The position numbers and the translations under genes were made by a program. The notes beneath the pieces are model-generated. The model saw only the letters and a program-made list of their open reading frames with translations. It had not been told where the DNA came from and did no database searches. A stretch of 64,000 bases of DNA from an uncultured Litoreibacter sp. (GTDB taxonomy: Bacteria; Pseudomonadota; Alphaproteobacteria; Rhodobacterales; Rhodobacteraceae): the NCBI GenBank assembly GCA_947501685.1, contig CANMWQ010000001.1:186001-250000 (forward strand), read 5' to 3'. This document shows, one piece after another, positions 10,554-21,107 of this stretch; the first letter of the stretch is position 1; each line of letters begins with the position of its first letter.

Positions 10554-11357
10554 TTAAGAGGCCGTCCCGCTTTTTTGTGCCGCACTTGTAGGCACGACGA
10601 TGAGGTTGATATCGGCCGCATCCAGCATGGCCGCAGTGCGGTCATCTATGCCGTCATCGGTGATGATGGTGGTGATCTCGGTCAGCGGGCAAAGGACCAG
10701 ACTTGACCGGTTCGCAAATTTCGAGCTGTCGGCCAGCACAACAAGTTCTTCCGCCTGACCGATCAGTTTCTGTTCGGCTTGGATCAGCAACGGATCCTGC
10801 TCCATCAGACCGAGCGGCCCAATCCCCTGCGCGCCCATAAACATGCGCTTGGCGTAGAAGTTACGGGTCACGTCATTGTCGAAAGGCGACAGGATGATGT
10901 TCTGCTCCCGGTAAATCACGCCGCCTGACAGCAGGATGGTGTTATGCGTGTTCTTCAGCAGATGTTCTGCAATCGGGAACGAGTTGGTGAAGACCTGAAG
11001 CTGCCGCGTGGCCAGCGGATGAACCATTTGGAACGTCGTTGTCCCGCCATTGATGATGATCGGCTCATCATCTGCACAAAGCTCTACGGCGGCTGCGGCA
11101 ATCGCCTGTTTCTCGGCAATATGCAGCGTCTCGTTATAGGAAAATGGCCGACCCGCCAGCCCGACAAACGGTTTGGTCGTCATAGCCTCCGCTCCGCCCC
11201 GCACGCGTTTCAACTTCTTGGTTTCGTCGAGCGTATTGATATCGCGGCGTATCGTGGCTTCGGAAGCCCCGGTCAGCGCACATAGATCAGGCACGGTGAC
11301 GACGGAACGATCCTGGACCGCCGATAAGATCACCCGATGTCTGTCAATCTCGTGCAT
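10554..11357 (-). CDS. rhaR: DeoR/GlpR-family transcriptional regulator of the rhamnose locus
   Basis: A 267-residue DeoR-type regulator: N-terminal winged helix-turn-helix (about residues 3-57, with VPDLCALTGASEATIRRDIN and LKRVRGGAEAM) and a C-terminal phosphosugar-sensing domain of the GlpR/ribose-isomerase-like fold (PIIINGGTTTFQM, VLADSSKFANRS). Start taken at MHEIDRHR with GGTGTGGG just upstream. First gene of the minus-strand operon and divergent from rhaD, so it likely binds the repeat-containing 180-base gap between them. The inducer is probably a phosphorylated rhamnose intermediate (inference from family). Whether it represses or activates is not visible. Confidence 0.85.
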   Translation of the reverse strand: MHEIDRHRVILSAVQDRSVVTVPDLCALTGASEATIRRDINTLDETKKLKRVRGGAEAMTTKPFVGLAGRPFSYNETLHIAEKQAIAAAAVELCADDEPIIINGGTTTFQMVHPLATRQLQVFTNSFPIAEHLLKNTHNTILLSGGVIYREQNIILSPFDNDVTRNFYAKRMFMGAQGIGPLGLMEQDPLLIQAEQKLIGQAEELVVLADSSKFANRSSLVLCPLTEITTIITDDGIDDRTAAMLDAADINLIVVPTSAAQKSGTAS

Positions 11358-11407
11358 TCCCACACCCTTGTTGCGTGCCTTTAGCTGGGGTGAGTCGCGA
11401 CAATATG

Positions 11408-11476
11408 TCAATCATTTTTTGTCATAAATAAGCATTCTGCGGTGCAGCATGATTGATAATGATTGTTTGTGATTGA
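11408..11476. promoter_or_regulatory. Repeat cluster in the rhaR/rhaD divergent control region
   Basis: TGATTG occurs at 11450, 11460 and 11470, exactly 10 bases apart, and the inverted copy TCAATCA lies at 11408-11414. The three direct copies would sit on one face of the helix. The position between divergent rhaR and rhaD makes this the natural operator for a DeoR-type regulator, a family that commonly uses multiple short repeats. Regulator identity is inferred. Confidence 0.6.
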
Positions 11477-11533
11477 CTTGAGAGGGGCAACTCGCCAGCT
11501 TGAGGGCAACATATTTTCCCAACGCAGCCGGTC

Positions 11534-13648
11534 ATGGAGACAATGATGCGCGACAGCCAATCCCAGCAACCCCTTGAATTTAAATGGGTAGATGCCGATG
11601 CCAGCAAAATGAGCGAGCCGGAAAAGCTGCTCTACCGCTCCAACCTTCTGGGCTCCGACAAGCGAATCACAAATTATGGAGGGGGCAACACCTCGGCCAA
11701 GGTCACGCAGCCCGACCCCCTGACAGGTAAAGACGTGGAGGTCCTCTGGGTCAAAGGCTCTGGTGGGGATGTGGGTTCCATCAAGATGGACGGGTTTTCG
11801 ACGCTTTACATGGATAAGCTGAACGCGCTGAAGGGCCTCTATAGAGGGGTTGAGTTCGAGGACGAGATGGTCGGCTACCTGCCGCATTGCACCTTCAACC
11901 TGAACCCCCGCGCGGCCTCCATCGACACGCCGCTGCATGCCTATGTGCCTGCGAAACATGTCGACCACATGCACCCTGACGCGATCATCGCCATTGCCGC
12001 CGCAAAAGACAGCAAGGCGCTGACCCAGCAGATTTTCGGCGACACGATCGGTTGGCTGCCCTGGAAAAAGCCGGGCTACGAGTTGGGTCTGTGGCTCTCG
12101 GATTTCTGCGCCAAAAACCCTAACGCAAAAGGCGTGGTCCTTGAAAGCCACGGGCTGTTCACTTGGGATGACGATGCGCGCGAATGCTACAAGCTGACGC
12201 TTGAGATCATCCAAAAGGCGATGGATTGGTTCGAAGAGCAAACTGCTGGGAAAGAGGCGTTCGGCGGTGAAATTCACACAAGCCTGCCCGCGGAAGAACG
12301 CCGCTCCATCGCCGCGCGGCTGATGCCGGCGATCCGGGGCATGGTCTCGGGCCAGCAGCATATGGTAGGGCATTTCACCGACAGCGACACGGTGCTGGAG
12401 TTTGTGAACGCCAAAGACATGGAGCGCCTCGCCGCCCTCGGCACCTCTTGCCCTGATCATTTCCTGCGCACGAAAATCTGCCCGCTGGTCGTCGATTTTG
12501 ACCCCGCCAAGCCGGATGTCGAAGCCACCCTGGCGGGCCTGACAGACGCGGTTGCCGCCTACCGCGAAGGCTACACGGCCTATTACGAGCGCTGCAAACA
12601 TGACGACAGCCCGGCCATTCGCGATCCCAACGCGGTGGTCTATCTGGTGCCGGGCGTCGGCATGATCACCTTTGCGAAAGACAAGGCAACGGCGCGAATC
12701 TCGGGCGAGTTCTACGTCAACGCGATCAACGTCATGCGCGGCGCGGATGCGGTGTCTGAGTATCAGGGCCTGCCCGAACAGGAGGCCTTCGACATCGAAT
12801 ATTGGCTGCTTGAAGAGGCCAAATTGCAGCGCATGCCCAAGCCCAAAGCGCTGGCAGGTCGCGTCGCTTTGGTCACCGGTGGGGCAGGGGGGATCGGCAC
12901 GGCCTCCGCGGAGCGCTACTTGCGCGAAGGGGCTTGTGTTATGCTGGCCGATATTGACGAAGCGGCTTTGGCGGACACGGCGAAAGCGCTGAAAGCGCAA
13001 TATTCTGACGACGTGGTGCGCACGGTGAATATGAACGTCACCGACGAGACCGCCGTTGCCGACGCCTATCTGGACATCTCTGCCGAATTTGGCGGCGTGG
13101 ATATTCTGGTCTCCAACGCAGGCATCGCCAGCTCGGCGCCTGTGACGGAAACCAGCTTGGATCTGTGGAACATGAACATGTCGATCCTGTCGACCGGTTA
13201 TTTCCTTGTCAGCCGCGAGGCCTTCAAGGTGATGCAGGTCCAAAACATGGGCGGCGCGGTGGTGTTCGTGGCGTCCAAGAACGGTCTCGCGGCGAGCCTC
13301 AACGCCTCCGCCTATTGTACCGCGAAAGCGTCTGAAATTCATCTGGCCCGCTGCCTCGCCCTTGAGGGCGCGCCGATTGGCATTCGTGTCAACGTAGTCA
13401 ACCCGGATGCGGTGCTGAAAGGCTCGAAAATCTGGTCGGGTGACTGGCTCAAAGAGCGCGCGGAGACCTATGGCAAAGACAAGGAGGGCCTTGAGGAGCA
13501 CTACCGCGAGCGCTCCATGCTGAAACGATCCGTGCTGCCCGAGGACATCGCCGAAGCTGCGTATTTTCTGGCCTCCGACTTGTCGGCAAAATCCACGGGC
13601 AATATCATCAATGTCGACGCTGGCAACGTCCAGGCATTCACGCGCTAG
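11534..13648 (+). CDS. rhaD: Bifunctional rhamnulose-1-phosphate aldolase / short-chain dehydrogenase
   Basis: A 704-residue fusion. The N-terminal class II aldolase domain (about residues 25-425) has metal-binding His residues in HVDHMHPDAI and an ESHGLFTWDD segment, and would split L-rhamnulose 1-phosphate into DHAP and L-lactaldehyde. The C-terminal short-chain dehydrogenase (about 437-700) has the NAD loop TGGAGGIG, SNAG and the catalytic YxxxK (SAYCTAKAS, Tyr near 593); it would oxidise L-lactaldehyde to L-lactate. This fusion is known in rhizobia and related bacteria. Possible ATGs at 11534, 11543 and 11546 are not resolved by a clear ribosome site. First gene of the divergent rhaDI operon. 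Confidence 0.93.
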   Translation: METMMRDSQSQQPLEFKWVDADASKMSEPEKLLYRSNLLGSDKRITNYGGGNTSAKVTQPDPLTGKDVEVLWVKGSGGDVGSIKMDGFSTLYMDKLNALKGLYRGVEFEDEMVGYLPHCTFNLNPRAASIDTPLHAYVPAKHVDHMHPDAIIAIAAAKDSKALTQQIFGDTIGWLPWKKPGYELGLWLSDFCAKNPNAKGVVLESHGLFTWDDDARECYKLTLEIIQKAMDWFEEQTAGKEAFGGEIHTSLPAEERRSIAARLMPAIRGMVSGQQHMVGHFTDSDTVLEFVNAKDMERLAALGTSCPDHFLRTKICPLVVDFDPAKPDVEATLAGLTDAVAAYREGYTAYYERCKHDDSPAIRDPNAVVYLVPGVGMITFAKDKATARISGEFYVNAINVMRGADAVSEYQGLPEQEAFDIEYWLLEEAKLQRMPKPKALAGRVALVTGGAGGIGTASAERYLREGACVMLADIDEAALADTAKALKAQYSDDVVRTVNMNVTDETAVADAYLDISAEFGGVDILVSNAGIASSAPVTETSLDLWNMNMSILSTGYFLVSREAFKVMQVQNMGGAVVFVASKNGLAASLNASAYCTAKASEIHLARCLALEGAPIGIRVNVVNPDAVLKGSKIWSGDWLKERAETYGKDKEGLEEHYRERSMLKRSVLPEDIAEAAYFLASDLSAKSTGNIINVDAGNVQAFTR

Positions 13649-13659
13649 GGGGCCTGAAC

Positions 13660-14934
13660 ATGATCACCGAACACATTATCAACCAAGACAACGATAAACG
13701 CGTGGCTGCGCTGCATGCGGATTACGACGCGCTGGGCGAGCATCTGGACCGGCGTGGTATCGACATTGCAGTCATCAAAGCGAAGGTCGCCGATTACGGC
13801 GTTGCCGTCCCCAGCTGGGGCGTGGGCACTGGCGGCACGCGTTTTGCGCGCTTTCCCGGCAAAGGCGAGCCGCGTGATGTCTTTGACAAGCTCAGCGATT
13901 GTGGGGTGATCCAGCAGCTGACCCGCGCCACGCCCAGCGTGTCGCTCCATATTCCGTGGGACAACGCCCCGGCGGCAGACTTGAATGCCAAGGCCGAAGA
14001 AGTCGGGCTCAGCTTTGACGCGATGAACTCCAACACGTTCCAAGACCAGGCGGATCAGCCGCATAGCTACCAGTTCGGCTCTCTGTCGCATACGAACGCC
14101 GCCACCCGCACCCAAGCGGTCGAGCACAACATCGCCTGCATCGAGCTGGGCGCTCAGATTGGCTCCAAAGCACTGACAATCTGGGTGGGCGACGGGTCCA
14201 ACTTTCCCGGCCAGACCAATTTCACCAAACAGTTCGAGCGTTATCTGGACGCCGCCCGTCAAGTCTATGACGCGCTGCCAGACGACTGGACGCTGCTCAC
14301 CGAGCACAAGATGTACGAGCCCGCCTTCTATTCCACAGTGGTGCAAGATTGGGGCACCAACCTGCTGATCGCGCAACAGATGGGCGACAAGGCCAAGTGC
14401 TTGGTCGATTTGGGTCACCATGCACCCAACGTAAACATCGAGATGATCGTCGCCCGGCTGACGCAGTTCGGCAAACTTGGCGGCTTCCATTTTAATGACA
14501 GCAAATACGGCGATGACGATCTCGATACCGGCAGCATCAACCCGTACCAGCTGTTTCTGGTGTTCAACGAGCTGGTGGAGGCCGAGGCTGATCCCGACTT
14601 CAACCCGATGCATATGCTGGACCAAAGCCACAATGTGACAGATCCAATTGAAAGCCTGATGGTCTCAGCCATGGAGGTGCAGCGCGCCTATGCGCAGGCC
14701 TTGCTGGTGGACCGCCCGGCCTTGGAAGGTTTTCAGGAGGGCAATGACGCGTTGATGGCCACCGATACGCTGAAGGCCGCTTACCGCACCGATGTTGAGC
14801 CCATCCTCGCCATGGCGCGGCTTGACCAAGGTGCTGCCATTGCGCCCATCCCGGCTTTCCGCGCTTCGGGCTACCGCAAAGCCGTTGCTGATGAGCGCCC
14901 CGAAGTTGTTGGCGCGGGCGGCGGTATCGTCTAG
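13660..14934 (+). CDS. rhaI: L-rhamnose isomerase (RhaI type)
   Basis: Converts L-rhamnose to L-rhamnulose. A 424-residue TIM-barrel isomerase of the xylose-isomerase-like fold, of the RhaI kind rather than E. coli RhaA. It shows HIPWDN, a metal-binding cluster including LLTEHKMYEP, VDLGHHAPN and GGFHFNDSKYGDDD, and Mn/Co-type Asp/Glu/His ligands. It starts 11 bases after rhaD, with a GGGGG stretch as ribosome site, so the two are one transcript. Together with rhaD and rhaK it completes the path from rhamnose to triose phosphate and lactate. Confidence 0.93.
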   Translation: MITEHIINQDNDKRVAALHADYDALGEHLDRRGIDIAVIKAKVADYGVAVPSWGVGTGGTRFARFPGKGEPRDVFDKLSDCGVIQQLTRATPSVSLHIPWDNAPAADLNAKAEEVGLSFDAMNSNTFQDQADQPHSYQFGSLSHTNAATRTQAVEHNIACIELGAQIGSKALTIWVGDGSNFPGQTNFTKQFERYLDAARQVYDALPDDWTLLTEHKMYEPAFYSTVVQDWGTNLLIAQQMGDKAKCLVDLGHHAPNVNIEMIVARLTQFGKLGGFHFNDSKYGDDDLDTGSINPYQLFLVFNELVEAEADPDFNPMHMLDQSHNVTDPIESLMVSAMEVQRAYAQALLVDRPALEGFQEGNDALMATDTLKAAYRTDVEPILAMARLDQGAAIAPIPAFRASGYRKAVADERPEVVGAGGGIV

Positions 14935-14975: not shown

Positions 14976-15012
14976 TGGCGTTGCCGCTGACACTTTGGCG
15001 TTACCGCTGACA
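14976..15012. repeat. 20-bp tandem direct repeat upstream of the Rieske operon
   Basis: TGGCGTTRCCGCTGACA occurs at 14976-14992 and 14996-15012, a period of 20 bases with one G/A difference in the core. A degenerate third start (TGGTGTGGC) follows at 15016, again 20 bases on. Location is about 70-100 bases before the first gene of the Rieske operon. Likely a regulator-binding array; the protein is unknown. Confidence 0.5.
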
Positions 15013-15027
15013 ATCTGGTGTGGCACA

Positions 15028-15079: not shown

Positions 15080-15448
15080 ATGGACCAAGCCGAACTGATT
15101 TTGTTATTCGCCAAAATATGGGGCGGTGTCGGGGCTTTGGTGGCGCTGGCGTTTCTCAGCTTCGGGATCGACCGCCTCGATGAGGACGCCAAAGGGGCCT
15201 ACGTGTTTCGCCCGCTCATCGTCCCGGGAATCCTGCTGATCTGGCCGCTTGTGCTCTGGAGGTGGTACATTCTGGCCGATGGCAAAGACGAATGGGCCAA
15301 ACGCTATAAGCCCAAACGCAATTCCCACAACCTGTTCGCCCTGATCATGCCCGTGCTGATCATAGGCATCATCGCCGCCGGGCTGTCGGTGCGCCAGACA
15401 TGGCCTGTCAATCTGGCCCCCGTTCAATTGACGGAGCCCGGCCAATGA
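15080..15448 (+). CDS. Small membrane protein, first gene of the Rieske operon
   Basis: A 122-residue protein I do not recognise. It has three hydrophobic segments (about residues 8-28, 45-62 and 88-106), with a charged loop FGIDRLDEDAKGAY between the first two and a WAKRYKPKRNSH basic stretch before the third. The W-P-L-V-L-W-R-W motif at the end of the second segment is striking. Its stop overlaps the next start in ATGA, so it is translationally coupled to the ferric-reductase/Rieske protein and is probably a subunit or assembly factor of that complex (inference). AAAGGCG precedes the ATG. Confidence 0.7.
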   Translation: MDQAELILLFAKIWGGVGALVALAFLSFGIDRLDEDAKGAYVFRPLIVPGILLIWPLVLWRWYILADGKDEWAKRYKPKRNSHNLFALIMPVLIIGIIAAGLSVRQTWPVNLAPVQLTEPGQ

Positions 15449-16509
15449 GCGTCAAATACACCCCCGTCCAGTGGAACCTGAATAAATGGGTCTACGACGC
15501 GGTCATGCTGGTGGGCGTCGTTGCCTTCTTGTGGCTGTTCCTCTTTGTCAGCCCGGAGCTGCTGAGCCACGAATTCCCGATCAATCCGCAAGTCCATAAC
15601 GCACGCGCCTTCGGGGCCTGCGCTTTTGTCATGCTGACGGTGATCTTGTGTATCGGCCCGCTTGCCCGGATCGATGAGCGCTTCCTGCCGCTGCTCTACA
15701 ATCGCCGCCATTTCGGGGTGATGACGACTTTTGTGGCGATCACCCATGCCAGCTACATCCTGAATTGGTACTTCGCCTTCTCAAAATCCGACAAGTTCTC
15801 CGCATTGCTCTTTGCCAATACCAGCTACACCCAATTGGCCGGTTTCCCCTTCGAGGCCTTTGGCATCTTCGCGCTTATTTGTCTGGCGGTGCTTGCCGCT
15901 ACCAGCCACGATTTCTGGATGAAGTTCCTGACGCCGCCCGTCTGGAAGCGCCTCCACAGCTTGATTTATTTTGCGTATGCCGCCGTGGTCGCGCATGTCA
16001 GTCTGGGCATTTTGCAAGACCAACAAAACCACGTCTTCACAGTGATCTTCATTGGCGGGGCGCTGGCCGTCGCGGGATTGCATGCCTATGCCGCTTGGCT
16101 GGATTGGCGTGGCGGCGACGAGGTCGGGGCGGAGAGCAATGGCTGGATTGAGATTTGCAGCCCTGAGGACATCAAGAACGGCTTTGCCAAAATCAAGCTC
16201 CTGCCCAATGGCGAGCGCGTTGCGGTGTTCAACCAAGAGGGCAAGCTCAGCGCCATCTCGAATGCCTGTGCCCATCAGAACGGGCCGCTGGGGGAGGGAC
16301 GGGTGATCGACTGTCTCGTGACCTGTCCTTGGCACGGGTTTCAGTATGACGTCACTAATGGCCGCTCCCCCGCGCCTTTCACCGAGACGGTGCCGACGTA
16401 TAATCTACGCCTGACAGATGGCGTCATTCAGGTCGACCCAAAGGCAAACCCGCCGGGCACATTTGTCGAACCTGTCCCGATCCCCGGCTGGCAGGAGGTG
16501 CCCGCATGA
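15445..16509 (+). CDS. Ferric-reductase-like transmembrane protein with C-terminal Rieske [2Fe-2S] domain
   Basis: A 354-residue membrane protein in two parts. Residues about 20-220 form five to six membrane segments with His residues placed to bind b-type haems (VAITHASYIL, then RLHSLIYFAYAAVVAHVS), as in ferric reductase / MsrQ-like domains. Residues about 230-340 form a Rieske domain with CAHQNGPLGEG and CPWHGFQYD, the full CxH...CxxH ligand set. This suggests electron transfer between a soluble donor, the 2Fe-2S cluster and membrane haem or quinone. It overlaps its neighbours by 4 bases on both sides. Electron direction and partner are inference; the downstream Rieske-ThDP enzyme is the obvious candidate. 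Confidence 0.83.
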   Translation: MSVKYTPVQWNLNKWVYDAVMLVGVVAFLWLFLFVSPELLSHEFPINPQVHNARAFGACAFVMLTVILCIGPLARIDERFLPLLYNRRHFGVMTTFVAITHASYILNWYFAFSKSDKFSALLFANTSYTQLAGFPFEAFGIFALICLAVLAATSHDFWMKFLTPPVWKRLHSLIYFAYAAVVAHVSLGILQDQQNHVFTVIFIGGALAVAGLHAYAAWLDWRGGDEVGAESNGWIEICSPEDIKNGFAKIKLLPNGERVAVFNQEGKLSAISNACAHQNGPLGEGRVIDCLVTCPWHGFQYDVTNGRSPAPFTETVPTYNLRLTDGVIQVDPKANPPGTFVEPVPIPGWQEVPA

Positions 16510-17270
16510 GCAATGACGACAAGCCGTTTTTCGTAGGCTACCTCGACGTCCCCGGACCTCTTCGCCGGTTTCTGCTTCTGGCCTGTGTGGCCGTGATCGG
16601 AATTTTTGTGGCAACGGGTTTTCTGATCGGCAGCACGCAGGACGAGCCGCCCGCTTCCGGGTTCCGCTTTGACTATGGCCGCCAGACCGTGACCGGCGTG
16701 ATCGAGCTGACCCCTTACCCGCTGCTGCGGGTCACCCAAGGCAATGACCTGATCAAACCCGGCAAGACGCTGATGCTGACGGGGCAGGGCAAGTTTGGCG
16801 TCGACGCGCGGGCGATGGGGCTGGAGGGCCAGTTGGCCGAAGTCAGCGGCATCATCCTGCAACGCGGCACGATCGACATGATGCAGTTGGCGGGCGGAAG
16901 ACGCGGGCTAAAGATGATTGAGGGCGACGCGCCCGCAATGGAGACGGAGCCGTTGGGCCGCTGGAAAGTGGCCGGAGAGATTTGCGACGGCAAATGTCTG
17001 AACGGTGCGATGCGCCCGGGTCGGGGCTTGGCCCATAAAGCCTGTGCCGCGCTTTGCCTTGTGGGCGACGTGCCACCGGTTTTCGTCTCGACCCAGCTCA
17101 TTGAAGGCTCTGACTTCATGCTCATCACAGGGCCGGATGGCACCAGATTGCCCAAGGCGGCTTATGACTATATCGGGCAGTTCATCACCGCAGAGGGTGA
17201 TTTGGAGCGTCGCGGAGACATGCTGATTTTCAAAATCGACACCGATACGCTTGAGGTGACCGACGAATGA
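16506..17270 (+). CDS. Membrane-anchored protein with a CxxxC...HxxCxxxC motif, unknown function
   Basis: 254 residues, not assigned to a named family. A cytoplasmic N-terminus (MSNDDKPFFVGYLDVPGPLR) is followed by one membrane anchor (about residues 21-42), so the rest is probably periplasmic. Near residues 155-180 lies the compact motif ICDGKCLNGAMRPGRG, then HKACAALC and GDVPPVF; the four Cys and one His look like a metal or cofactor site. The flanks are beta-rich with several small repeated-looking modules. It overlaps both neighbours by 4 bases, so it is made with the haem/Rieske protein; a role as periplasmic electron-transfer or assembly partner is inference. Confidence 0.7.
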   Translation: MSNDDKPFFVGYLDVPGPLRRFLLLACVAVIGIFVATGFLIGSTQDEPPASGFRFDYGRQTVTGVIELTPYPLLRVTQGNDLIKPGKTLMLTGQGKFGVDARAMGLEGQLAEVSGIILQRGTIDMMQLAGGRRGLKMIEGDAPAMETEPLGRWKVAGEICDGKCLNGAMRPGRGLAHKACAALCLVGDVPPVFVSTQLIEGSDFMLITGPDGTRLPKAAYDYIGQFITAEGDLERRGDMLIFKIDTDTLEVTDE

Positions 17271-17569
17271 AACGCGTCTTCCTCCTCCTCCTTGTGGCCC
17301 TGCTGGGGGCGGTCATGCTCTACCTGTCAAGGTTCTGGATGTTTGATCTTTGGTCGCGCCCCGGTCTCTTTGGCTTGCCAGAGCTGCGCCCCAATGGCGG
17401 CCTCTTGGCGCGCTGGTTGCGCGGCACGCCCTTCGCGCCTTTTGAGCTGCTGATCTGGGCCACGGGTGTCTTCATGATCCTCACACTGCTGCAGAAGATT
17501 GTGGATTTCTTCTCTCCCCAACCCGACGTGGACCCAGGACCAGAAAAGGACGATGCGAATGACGGATGA
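17267..17569 (+). CDS. Small two-segment membrane protein of the Rieske operon
   Basis: 100 residues, unrecognised. A hydrophobic N-terminal segment (RVFLLLLVALLGAVMLYL) may be a signal anchor; a second membrane segment spans about residues 62-82 (FELLIWATGVFMILTLL). The tail is polar and acidic (DVDPGPEKDDAND). It overlaps the previous gene by ATGA and the next start by 11 bases. Probably a small subunit of the same membrane complex, judging only from position. Confidence 0.65.
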   Translation: MKRVFLLLLVALLGAVMLYLSRFWMFDLWSRPGLFGLPELRPNGGLLARWLRGTPFAPFELLIWATGVFMILTLLQKIVDFFSPQPDVDPGPEKDDANDG

Positions 17570-19538
17570 GACTCTCGACTGGATCAGCGTAGGCCACCTA
17601 ACCGATCTGCCTGAGGGCCGTGTAAAGACCGTCACTGCTCGCACGACCTCCATTTGCTTGGTCCATTTCGACGGCCAATGGGCCGCCATGAACAACCATT
17701 GCCCTCATCAACGCGGACCGCTTGGTGAGGGCTCGATCGAAAAAGGCGTCGATGACAAATGCTGGATTCGCTGCCCGTGGCATGGCTGGGACTTTGACCC
17801 GCTAACCGGCAAACCACCCGGCGGCCATGAGGATACGGGGCAGGATATGTACCCCGTCGATATTCGCGATGGCGAAATATTCGTGGGGCTGGAGCCAGAG
17901 CCGCCGCATGAACGCACCGTCACAGATGTTATGGTCGACACGCTGTCCAATTGGGGCGTGCAGTCGGTGTTTGGCATGGTGGGTCACTCCAACCTTGGCC
18001 TGTCAGACGCAATCCGGCTGGCTGTCGTCGACGGCAAAATGACCTATTTCGGCATCCGGCACGAGGGTGCTGCCGCCTTTGCGGCCTCCGCTTACGGCAA
18101 GCTGACTGGCATGCCTGCTGCCTGCCTGACCATTGCGGGGCCCGGGGCCACGAACCTGCTGACCGGCCTTTGGGACGCCAAGGTGGACCGCGCCCCGGTG
18201 CTGGCACTGACAGGTCAGGTGCAAACGCAAGTCATGGGCCCCGGCGCGTTTCAGGATATCGACCTGCTATCCGCCTTCGACGCCGTGACCGCCTTCTCGC
18301 AACCGGTGTTGGGCAGCTCCAACCACGCAGAGCTGGCGTCGCTCGCCTGCAAGACCGCCATCGTGGAGCAAAATGTCGCCCATCTGATCTTCCCCGATGA
18401 CGTGCAAACCAACCCCTCTGACCAGGAGCCCGGCTCGCCGGAGGGGCGCATCACGCAAAGTGCGGTGTCTCCGGCCCAAAGCGACGTGGACCAAGCGGCG
18501 GCGATGATCAAAGCGGCCAAACGCCCGATTATTGTCGTGGGTCACGGCGCCTATCCGATGCGCGATCAGGTTGTCGCTCTGGCCGAAACGCTGGGCACTC
18601 CGGTGCTGACCACCTTCAAGGCCAAAGGCCTGATCCCCGACGACCACCCCAATGCGGGCGGCGTGCTGGGCCGCTCTGGTACGCCGATTGCCAGCTGGTT
18701 CATGAACGAGGCTGATCTGATTATTGCGCTGGGCACCAGCTTCTCCAACCACACCGGGATTGAGCGCGGCAAGACCATCATTCAAGTCGATCACGAACGC
18801 ATGCAGCTCGGGAAATTCCACCCGGTGGCTCTGCCCGTCTGGGGCGATGTGGCCGCCTTTTGCGCGGCGTTGACAAAAGCGGACCACAAGAACGCAAAAG
18901 CCGACAACCAAATCACAGAGCTGGCCGACCGCTGGAAGATTTGGCGCAGCGAAAAGCAGACACGCCTACAAGAGAATCTTGGCAAAGGCATCCACTCTTT
19001 CGCGATCTTCGAGGCCTTGGGCCGTCTGGTCCCCGACAACACGATCTTCGCTGTGGACGTGGGCAACAACACCTACTCGTTCGGACGTTACCTTGAAACG
19101 AAAGGCAGTCAACGGGTGCTGATGTCGGGCTATCTTGGGTCTATCGGCTTCGGGCTGCCCGCTGCGATGGGGGCATGGGCCGCGACGCAGGACAAGGCGG
19201 ACCTCAAAGGCTGCAAAGTCGTGTCGATCTCGGGCGACGGGGGCTTCGGGCAATATCCGATGGAGTTCACCACCGCCGTCAAATACGGCATGGATATCAC
19301 CCATATCCTTTTGCATAATGGCGAATTGGGTAAAATCTCGAAAGAGCAGCGCTCCGGCGAATGGCCCGTCTGGGAGACCAACCTGCAAAACCCGGGCTTT
19401 GCGGCTTTCGCCCGTCTCTGCGGTGGGCACGGGGCGAAGGTGACGGACGCCTCCGAGATCGAGGCCGCGATCAAAGAAGCCTTGGATCACAAGGGCCCCG
19501 CCTTGGTGGAGATTATGACCGACGCGGATCTCGTCTGA
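17559..19538 (+). CDS. Rieske domain fused to a thiamine-diphosphate-dependent (pyruvate oxidase/acetolactate synthase-like) enzyme
   Basis: An unusual 659-residue fusion. Residues 1-110 form a Rieske domain (NHCPHQRGPLGEG and CPWHGWDFDP supply the CxH and CxxH ligands). Residues about 120-659 form a complete ThDP enzyme: the activating Glu in RHEGAAAFAASAYG, substrate-channel PGATNL, a central domain around PIIVVGHGAYPM, and the ThDP/Mg loop SGDGGFGQYPMEF followed by HNGELGKI. The architecture is that of acetolactate synthase and pyruvate oxidase. The start at 17559 has AAGGA 8 bases upstream; ATG 17553 is too close to it. A 2-oxoacid decarboxylase handing electrons through its own 2Fe-2S cluster to the membrane Rieske/haem protein is my inference. 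The substrate is unknown. Confidence 0.85.
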   Translation: MTDETLDWISVGHLTDLPEGRVKTVTARTTSICLVHFDGQWAAMNNHCPHQRGPLGEGSIEKGVDDKCWIRCPWHGWDFDPLTGKPPGGHEDTGQDMYPVDIRDGEIFVGLEPEPPHERTVTDVMVDTLSNWGVQSVFGMVGHSNLGLSDAIRLAVVDGKMTYFGIRHEGAAAFAASAYGKLTGMPAACLTIAGPGATNLLTGLWDAKVDRAPVLALTGQVQTQVMGPGAFQDIDLLSAFDAVTAFSQPVLGSSNHAELASLACKTAIVEQNVAHLIFPDDVQTNPSDQEPGSPEGRITQSAVSPAQSDVDQAAAMIKAAKRPIIVVGHGAYPMRDQVVALAETLGTPVLTTFKAKGLIPDDHPNAGGVLGRSGTPIASWFMNEADLIIALGTSFSNHTGIERGKTIIQVDHERMQLGKFHPVALPVWGDVAAFCAALTKADHKNAKADNQITELADRWKIWRSEKQTRLQENLGKGIHSFAIFEALGRLVPDNTIFAVDVGNNTYSFGRYLETKGSQRVLMSGYLGSIGFGLPAAMGAWAATQDKADLKGCKVVSISGDGGFGQYPMEFTTAVKYGMDITHILLHNGELGKISKEQRSGEWPVWETNLQNPGFAAFARLCGGHGAKVTDASEIEAAIKEALDHKGPALVEIMTDADLV

Positions 19539-19560
19539 CGCGTCTTCACGTGGAGAGAAT

Positions 19561-20178
19561 ATGCCAGCGCAACCGTTTCTCGTGGGCCAGCCCGTGCTGC
19601 TTGTTATAGACATACAGGCCAGCACCTTCATCGATGACAGCGCCGAGCGCTCTATCCCCAACATGCCAGGCTACCGCGACCGGATGGAGAAAGCCTGCGC
19701 GCTGGTCGCCCATGCCCGTGCCAGCGGCGTCCCGGTCATCTTTGTCCAGGAAGCCCACCGCCCCGACCTGATTGATTTCGGCCGTGAACTCGACGGCTCT
19801 GAAACGGTGCATTGCCTTGAGGGTGACCCGCGCACCGAATTGGCGGTGGAACAGCTGCAAATCACGCAAGCTGACTACACGATCAAGAAGCGGCGCTATT
19901 CGTGTTTCTTTGGCACCGACCTTGAGATCCTGCTCAAGGGCTTGAAGGCAGAAACGCTGGTCATGGTCGGTGGGCTTACGGATGTCTGCGTGCATTACAC
20001 CTTCGCGGACGGGCATCAGATGGATTATCACTGCCGGGTGGTGGAGGAATGCGTCGGTGGCTCATCGGACGCCGCGCATGAAGCTTCGTTGAACGCGATG
20101 GAATATCTGCAAACTGGCGCGCGACGTTCTTTTGACGAAACCTGCGCCGCATTTTCAGCAGTGTCGCGGCGCGGATGA
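19561..20178 (+). CDS. Isochorismatase-family cysteine hydrolase
   Basis: 205 residues with the triad pattern of the family: Asp in LLVIDIQAS, Lys in YTIKKRRYSCF, and nucleophilic Cys in GLTDVCVHYT. Members hydrolyse isochorismate, nicotinamide, N-carbamoyl compounds or other amides; nothing here narrows the substrate. The ribosome site GGAGAG is 4 bases before the ATG. Its stop overlaps the next start in ATGA. Its place between a ThDP enzyme and a beta-keto acid cleavage enzyme suggests an amide or carbamate intermediate in one catabolic route (inference). Confidence 0.88.
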   Translation: MPAQPFLVGQPVLLVIDIQASTFIDDSAERSIPNMPGYRDRMEKACALVAHARASGVPVIFVQEAHRPDLIDFGRELDGSETVHCLEGDPRTELAVEQLQITQADYTIKKRRYSCFFGTDLEILLKGLKAETLVMVGGLTDVCVHYTFADGHQMDYHCRVVEECVGGSSDAAHEASLNAMEYLQTGARRSFDETCAAFSAVSRRG

Positions 20179-21107
20179 GCAAACCCGTCATCATCACCTG
20201 CGCGCCCACGGGCGGCATCCACACGCCGACCATGTCGCCCTACTTGCCGGTCACACCTGCCGAGATTGCCACTGCCAGCATCGAGGCTGCAGAGGCCGGG
20301 GCGTCGATCATCCACCTCCATGCCCGCGACCCTGAGACCGGCAAACCTGACCCGCGGCCCGAGACGTTCCAGCAGTTTTTGCCGGTGATCAAACAGGCGA
20401 CGGATGCGGTGGTGAATGTCTCGACGGGTGCGGGGCTTGGTATGACAATGGACGAACGCCTGCTGGCCGCGACCACCGCCAGCCCTGAAATGGCGTCGCT
20501 CAATATGGGCTCGATGAATTTCGGGATTTTCCCGCTGCTCGAAAAATACGACGACTGGCAGTTTGACTGGGAGCCGGAGTTCTTGGGCATGACCAAAGAC
20601 TTCATTTTCCCCAACACCTTCGCCACGATTGAATATGCGCTGAAGAATTTGGGCGAGGCGCATGGCACCAAGTTCGAGTTTGAATGCTACGATCTGGGCC
20701 ATCTCTACAACGTCAAATATTTCGTCGACAAAGGCCTGATCAAGCCGCCATTCTTCATTCAGTTTGTCCTTGGCATCTTGGGCGGGGCCGGGGCAGAGTT
20801 GGAAAACCTGCAACATCTCAACCGCATGGCCGACAAGCTGTTCGGGCCCGAGAATTACGAATGGTCCGTGCTGGGCGCGGGCAAGGCGCAGATGCCGATG
20901 GCGACTCAAGCCGCCTTGCTGGGAGGCAACCTGCGGGTGGGGCTGGAGGACAGCCTGTTCATCGGCAAGGGCGAGCTTGCGACCTCGAACGCGCAGCAGG
21001 TCCGCAAAATACGCACCATCGTTGAAAGCCTCGGGCTAGAGGTCGCGACCCCCGCTGAGGCCCGTGAAAGACTGGCCTTGAAAGGCGGCGATCAGGTCGG
21101 GTTCTGA
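20175..21107 (+). CDS. Beta-keto acid cleavage enzyme (BKACE, DUF849 / Kce-like)
   Basis: 310-residue TIM-barrel Zn enzyme. Members condense a beta-keto acid with acetyl-CoA and split it into acetoacetate and a new CoA ester. Zn ligands are seen in IIHLHARDPETG (His-x-His near residues 46-48), and VGLEDSLF carries the catalytic Glu. SCAPTGG-like CAPTGGIHTPTMSPYLP and NVSTGAGLGMTMDER are typical family blocks. Substrate class cannot be fixed without modelling the pocket. Last gene of the Rieske operon; its 3' end overlaps that of convergent trmD by 16 bases. Confidence 0.9.
   Translation: MSKPVIITCAPTGGIHTPTMSPYLPVTPAEIATASIEAAEAGASIIHLHARDPETGKPDPRPETFQQFLPVIKQATDAVVNVSTGAGLGMTMDERLLAATTASPEMASLNMGSMNFGIFPLLEKYDDWQFDWEPEFLGMTKDFIFPNTFATIEYALKNLGEAHGTKFEFECYDLGHLYNVKYFVDKGLIKPPFFIQFVLGILGGAGAELENLQHLNRMADKLFGPENYEWSVLGAGKAQMPMATQAALLGGNLRVGLEDSLFIGKGELATSNAQQVRKIRTIVESLGLEVATPAEARERLALKGGDQVGF

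Follow-up and report, generated by a model that had tools for sequence, protein, structure and literature searches.

Does a pyruvate-oxidase-like enzyme with a built-in iron-sulfur domain pass its electrons to a haem protein in the membrane? The question is raised by seven plus-strand open reading frames (ORFs) within positions 15080-21107 of a 64,000-nucleotide stretch of DNA (the window) from an uncultured Litoreibacter sp. of the Rhodobacteraceae (assembly GCA_947501685.1, contig CANMWQ010000001.1, positions 186,001 to 250,000, forward strand). As the original prediction from the letters of the window had it, the genes mostly overlap, with ATGA overlaps between neighbours at 15445, 16506, 17267, and 20175, and two of them encode separate Rieske domains, each with a Pfam match and an intact CxH...CxxH motif. 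One is g2 (15445..16509, + strand), which joins a ferric-reductase-like haem membrane domain to a C-terminal Rieske domain. The other is g5 (17559..19538, + strand), in which an N-terminal Rieske domain is fused to a pyruvate-oxidase-like thiamin diphosphate (ThDP) enzyme. The core of the module is g1-g5. We put a probability of about 43% on the reading that these five genes encode a membrane-linked electron-transfer module, in which g5 would oxidise a 2-oxo acid and deliver the electrons via Rieske clusters to g2.

The Rieske-ThDP enzyme

Pfam places a Rieske domain at residues 7-85 of g5 (1.5e-16) and the TPP_enzyme_N/M/C domains at residues 119-651 (6e-32 or better). With the start codon assumed at ATG 17559, g5 overlaps g4 by 11 nt; an alternative in-frame ATG lies at 17553. 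The four Rieske ligands, C48, H50, C72, and H75, are encoded at 17700-17783. The g5 alignment holds 112 rows, five of which miss part or all of the Rieske region, and the four ligands are kept in 107/107 rows with the full region. They are still invariant after the addition of four haloarchaeal sequences and one mycobacterial sequence. The g2 ligands (C275, H277, C294, and H297, encoded at 16267-16335) are kept in 71/71 rows. Loss of these residues in homologues, which the original prediction had named as evidence against itself, is not what the alignments contain. The match to g5 begins at residue 1-6 in 35/36 sample rows, with the exception (G636) beginning at a contig edge, so the Rieske fusion is constant.

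Pyruvate oxidases (PoxB/POX) carry a catalytic Glu in an RHE motif and a ThDP motif of the form GDG...N. In g5, R167-H168-E169, G559-D560-G561, and N587 are invariant in 15/15 rows of the alphaproteobacterial sample. The closest Protein Data Bank sequence is E. coli PoxB (3eya, 7.5e-60), and the AlphaFold2 (AF2) model of g5, with a predicted TM-score (pTM) of 0.82, matched PoxB in Foldseek with a TMt of up to 0.86. PoxB and the C. glutamicum enzyme PQO are among the top Foldseek matches and resemble g5 in their three-domain ThDP make-up; they differ from g5, which has an N-terminal Rieske domain and no PoxB-type tail. The alignment with PoxB runs only to residue 527 of its 572-residue chain, after which 5 residues of g5 remain. 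The C-terminal tail, which serves PoxB in membrane binding, is thus missing by sequence comparison, and an electron exit other than that of PoxB is plausible for g5. The best NCBIfam pyruvate oxidase model, PRK08611, scores 390.8 bits, far under its 742-bit cut-off.

The membrane proteins

The membrane protein g2 matches Ferric_reduct (1.6e-11; 44.8 bits, cut-off 28) and Rieske (1.9e-15), and no FAD/NADPH domain was found in it in the Pfam search. His 89, 101, 155, 171, 184, and 213 in its membrane part are invariant over 71 rows. The Ferric_reduct domain is common to g2 and the ferric reductase superfamily (MsrQ/YedZ, NOX, and bFRE), from which g2 differs by its C-terminal Rieske domain, its partners g1, g3, and g4, and its coupling to a Rieske-ThDP enzyme. 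A Rieske domain as electron-transfer agent is drawn for ferric reductase domain model M4 in PMC3591440.

The three partners are all membrane-associated by hydropathy, as had been predicted, and none reaches the curated cut-off of a Pfam family. The 122-aa g1 (15080..15448, + strand) has three transmembrane (TM) segments and the 100-aa g4 (17267..17569, + strand) has two. Between them in the order of genes, g3 (16506..17270, + strand) has a sole TM helix, at residues 17-43 of its AF2 model, followed by two predicted OB-like barrels; C160, C164, H177, C180, and C184 are invariant. In relatives, g1 homologues accompany g2 and g4 homologues come after g3. A pirin gene lies near g2-g3 at L208:11781-12719 (Pfam was run on L208 only), and L209 and L222 carry the same cluster.

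Co-occurrence of g5 and g2 in relatives

We sampled 295 genomes of the family, 385 of the class, and 398 of the phylum; the samples overlap partly and include the genome of the window. The g5 gene was present in 16, 15, and 5 of these, respectively, and every match fell within the class of the window. A scan of named genome contigs, from which the best 80 of 291 loci were kept, and 31 further loci gave 111 loci for comparison of layout. Nine pairs have an identical enzyme C-terminus, so about 102 of these are distinct.

In the fetched flanks of the 111 loci, g5 was accompanied by both g2 and c1, a Rieske-glutamate synthase gene discussed below, in 45, by c1 alone in 30, by g2 alone in 9, and by neither in 27. 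These flank counts for g2 and c1 are lower bounds, given the shortness of many contigs. Within 6.5 kb of g5 (109 loci), we found c1 in 77, g2 in 54, g3 in 54, and a Na+/H+ antiporter gene, c4, in 38. A common order is c4, c1, g1, g2, g3, g4, g5, and that in Roseibium/Labrenzia is c4, c1, g5, g1, g2, g3.

Across the family, g2 occurs in 14/16 genomes with g5 versus 10/279 without it (p=7e-16, odds ratio 188; this and the other co-occurrence p values are uncorrected for phylogeny), which bears out the predicted coupling of the Rieske-ThDP enzyme to the haem/Rieske membrane protein. The two genes lie on different contigs or more than 700 kb apart in 6 of the 14 genomes (G001, G029, G125, G171, G194, and G240), so the tie exceeds gene order. 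Among eight named genomes without g2 near g5, five carry g2 elsewhere, one of which (G1029) looks like G029 again. Beyond the family sample, a further 16 genomes with g5 divide into eight with g2 and full c1, seven with neither, and G636 with a partial c1; identity to g5 is 65-75% in the eight with both genes and 53-64% in the seven without. The original prediction would have been contradicted by a ThDP gene found mostly without the membrane genes. That expectation of company holds within the family (14/16), and outside the family sample it extends to half of the genomes (8/16).

Could g1-g4 and g5 be two modules that work independently, occur in the same habitats, and merely drift together? 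The presence of g2 without g5 in 10 family genomes, of g5 without g2 in 2, and of g2-g3 on Rhizobium plasmids would fit this. The odds ratio of 188 over 295 genomes, the coupling in six genomes despite the lack of linkage, and the several gene orders that unite g2 and g5 argue the other way, and we consider such independence quite unlikely.

A third Rieske enzyme and an antiporter

The commonest neighbour of g5 in relatives, c1, is missing from the genome of the window. Its product joins a Rieske domain to the FMN domain of a glutamate synthase (GltS; Pfam Rieske and Glu_synthase, in L066), with CxH...CxxH near the N-terminus in 86/92 rows; the remaining six are shorter ORFs of 165-487 aa. Full c1 occurs in 14/16 family genomes with g5 versus 13/279 without (p=7e-15), and in 15/24 with g2 versus 12/271 without (p=3e-12). 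These 27 genomes are those whose matches cover the Rieske end, and they include G098 (4-468 of 536), G157 (4-372), and G184 (in two pieces). Of six named genomes without c1 near g5, three carry it elsewhere. In 21 other family genomes the c1 matches begin at residue 94 or later, and two CDGSH motifs were present in 4/4 loci read.

A homologue of the antiporter c4 was found in 15/31 genomes with g5 versus 4/40 without it, 20 of those 40 having been picked for their g2 or c1. Only 7 of these 15, and 2 of those 4 without g5, are above 55% identity. Four loci (L065, L070, L085, and L103) have a DUF5996-like gene and a gene for a small TrkA_C-like membrane protein after g5 (Pfam scores below the curated cut-offs).

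CDGSH forms and wider spread

On both enzymes, g5 and c1, His-ligated 2Fe-2S modules turn up repeatedly. A CDGSH pair stands before the Rieske domain in 4/4 long g5 forms tested, three of which also contain Fer4_19. In these three (L145:7557-10190, L147:9090-11672, and L148:8037-10718), two CDGSH domains, Fer4_19, Rieske, and the ThDP enzyme form one chain of 860-893 aa, which from its domains could possibly give a single ThDP enzyme four Fe-S clusters. A CDGSH pair replaces the Rieske domain in GltS homologues of Vibrio and in 4/4 readable family loci. Type 5 CISD proteins, according to PMC3174974, join tandem CDGSH domains to a glutamate synthase FMN domain; the glutamate synthase part of c1 is approximately 62-65% identical to CDGSH-bearing homologues, and c1 has a Rieske domain where the CDGSH pair stands. 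PMC5859297 describes CDGSH proteins with Rieske_2, Fer4_19, or Glu_synthase domains, and the divergent g5 forms similarly combine CDGSH, Rieske, and mostly Fer4_19. A word search of its main text gave 0 occurrences of thiamin, acetolactate, or pyruvate. The parts of the module are known families, with the ferric reductase domain-Rieske and CDGSH-glutamate synthase architectures already in print; in the open-access literature searched we found no description of the Rieske-ThDP fusion or of the whole module.

Carriers of the module are some mostly marine bacteria, and the enzyme itself occurs more widely. A search of 72,556 plasmid records (E limit 1e-100) turned up g5 on five plasmids, four of them haloarchaeal and one from Mycobacteroides abscessus; full c1 is on 3/4 of the haloarchaeal ones. 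Genes for a Na+/H+ antiporter and a K+ channel come after g5 on a Halorarius plasmid, where c1 lies approximately 4 kb farther along; on the Mycobacteroides plasmid an antiporter lies 3 kb from g5. In a FastTree phylogeny of 47 sequences, for which two paralogues from the genome of the window served as the root, the mycobacterial and haloarchaeal g5 are basal, the CDGSH forms and one short form come next, and the module-bearing alphaproteobacteria fall together. By annotation, the haloarchaeal plasmid regions around g5 and c1 (L272, L273, L275, and L277) also contain thioredoxin, DsrE, TauE, mercuric reductase, and radical SAM genes.

Genes for an ECF sigma factor and zf-HC2 are both present in six loci with the antiporter and g5 (Pfam was run on one of each). 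On five Rhizobium plasmids g2-g3 occurs without g5; the one viewed has ECF, NrsF, and chlorite-dismutase-family genes nearby. As context, the neighbouring ECF, zf-HC2, and antiporter genes point to a role in stress or ion homeostasis, and the module is perhaps controlled by stress. Such neighbours, with the K+-channel gene, and the swapping or addition of CDGSH and Rieske modules on the same enzymes, would also suit a different function, in which the Rieske and CDGSH clusters would sense redox state or oxidants and switch the ThDP and FMN enzymes accordingly, and g2 would be part of a different redox system in the membrane. The coupling of g5 to a transmembrane haem-Rieske protein, even when unlinked, suits electron transfer better, and we regard a sensor function as rather unlikely.

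Proposed electron route

We infer the substrate, the flavin, haem, and cluster occupancy, the topology, the electron direction, and the physiological role of the module as follows. The g5 enzyme would decarboxylate and oxidise a 2-oxo acid, with pyruvate as the default guess, and the electrons would pass, probably via a flavin, to the [2Fe-2S] cluster in the enzyme's own N-terminal Rieske domain. From there they could move to the Rieske domain of g2, on to the g2 haems, and across the membrane. On the outside, the OB-like barrels of g3, with their five invariant Cys/His residues, may act as a periplasmic exit or anchor. The third Rieske enzyme, c1, present in most family genomes with g5, would feed or draw on the same chain, with an antiporter often encoded alongside. 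A role in redox or ion homeostasis under stress seems likelier than the breakdown of a single carbon source.

The electrons might also flow inward, with g2 drawing them from the membrane to reduce the ThDP and GltS-like enzymes via their Rieske domains, for example in imino acid reduction. Reductant is normally consumed by the FMN domains of glutamate synthases, and active sites are often supplied by Rieske ferredoxins, whereas PoxB-like enzymes oxidise. Ferric reductases and NOX move electrons from the cytosol to the outside (PMC3591440), and we judge inward flow to be unlikely.

A broader scheme, in our view doubtful, would make this a modular redox chain common to bacteria and haloarchaea, in which Rieske or CDGSH domains serve as exchangeable His-ligated 2Fe-2S plugs on unrelated cytosolic ThDP and FMN enzymes. 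In alphaproteobacteria these plugs would dock to a transmembrane haem-Rieske hub and drive or gate the antiporter under oxidative or electrophile stress.

If the electron-transfer module is real, a pyruvate-oxidase-type enzyme would be wired to its own Fe-S cluster and then to transmembrane haem, a route unlike that of PoxB and PQO. Rieske and CDGSH fusions that lack an assigned function would gain a role open to testing, and a redox module would be defined whose enzyme occurs in bacteria and on archaeal plasmids.

Evidence against the module

Several observations weigh against the electron-transfer module. The g2 gene is missing in 2/16 family genomes with g5 (G126 and G266) and in 8/16 outside the family sample, c1 is missing in 2/16 of the family g5 genomes (the window's own and G194), and g2 without g5 is found in the 10 family genomes and on the five Rhizobium plasmids, so the parts can work apart. 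To this is added the lack of a phylogeny correction in all co-occurrence p values. No c4 was found in the genome of the window, with matches of the same query in other genomes as a positive control, and many of the c4 matches, at 39-46% identity, may be paralogues. The antiporters near g5 in haloarchaea and the mycobacterium resemble c4 only distantly or have no match to it.

Other points concern the proteins. The ferric reductase domain superfamily has six TM helices, versus five segments that pass the hydropathy cut in g2, so a cytoplasmic position for the g2 Rieske domain is an assumption. The AF2 model of g5 was built on 15 rows, with five models ranging from 81.5 to 67.3 in predicted local distance difference test (pLDDT) score and the stretches 221-236 and 590-611 under 50. 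With this model, PoxB, PQO, AHAS, and 2-hydroxyacyl-CoA lyase cluster closely in Foldseek; since PoxB, AHAS, and the lyase score near-equal, oxidation is not secured over carboligation. In haloarchaeal forms SDG replaces GDG and D replaces N in the ThDP motif, so that with these sequences added the g5 columns G559 and N587 lose invariance and the catalytic Glu stays invariant. This change may affect the binding of the cofactor or leave it intact.

The hydrolase and BKACE genes

Two enzyme genes complete the cluster. The g6 product (19561..20178, + strand) is an isochorismatase-fold hydrolase (Pfam Isochorismatase, 2.4e-38), and g7 (20175..21107, + strand) encodes a beta-keto acid cleavage enzyme (BKACE; Pfam BKACE, 5e-108) of the 3,5-dioxohexanoate:acetyl-CoA family (NCBIfam NF053538, 506 bits, above the 430 cut-off). 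The original prediction saw in them partners in the breakdown of an amide- or carbamate-bearing acid. On that view g1-g7 would form a single catabolic operon, with the hydrolase, the ThDP enzyme, and the BKACE degrading such an acid and electrons leaving to the membrane. The 22-nt gap between g5 and g6, the ATGA overlap of g6 and g7, and a like arrangement in the near relative L024 agree with this. L024 is the single one of the 111 fetched relative loci in which g6 and g7 adjoin g5 (12 loci have less than 1.4 kb downstream of g5 and could not reveal them), and in other genomes of the family all 13 g6 homologues examined lack both BKACE and g5 within the approximately 1.5 kb fetched around them. 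The neighbours of g6 homologues are unlike one another (eight proteins in six loci), and the same-genus genome G171 has g5 without adjoining g6 and g7 (L123). With g6 and g7 beside g5 only here and in L024, the amide/carbamate pathway is unsupported, and we consider the seven-gene catabolic operon very unlikely; g6 and g7 are probably lineage-specific neighbours and not parts of the module. One g6 homologue, at L256:322-1470, has a Rieske ring-hydroxylating oxygenase gene on one side and a sulfatase gene on the other.

Upstream region

Upstream of g1, a 20-nt repeat occurs in two tandem copies that are 85% alike (14976..15015, + strand) and is overlapped by a weak promoter-like match. Among the fetched loci, the repeat pattern had no match except in the window's own genome. 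Directly upstream, at 10554-14934, are genes whose translations resemble a regulator of the DeoR type, an aldolase/dehydrogenase fusion, and an isomerase, perhaps an L-rhamnose operon.

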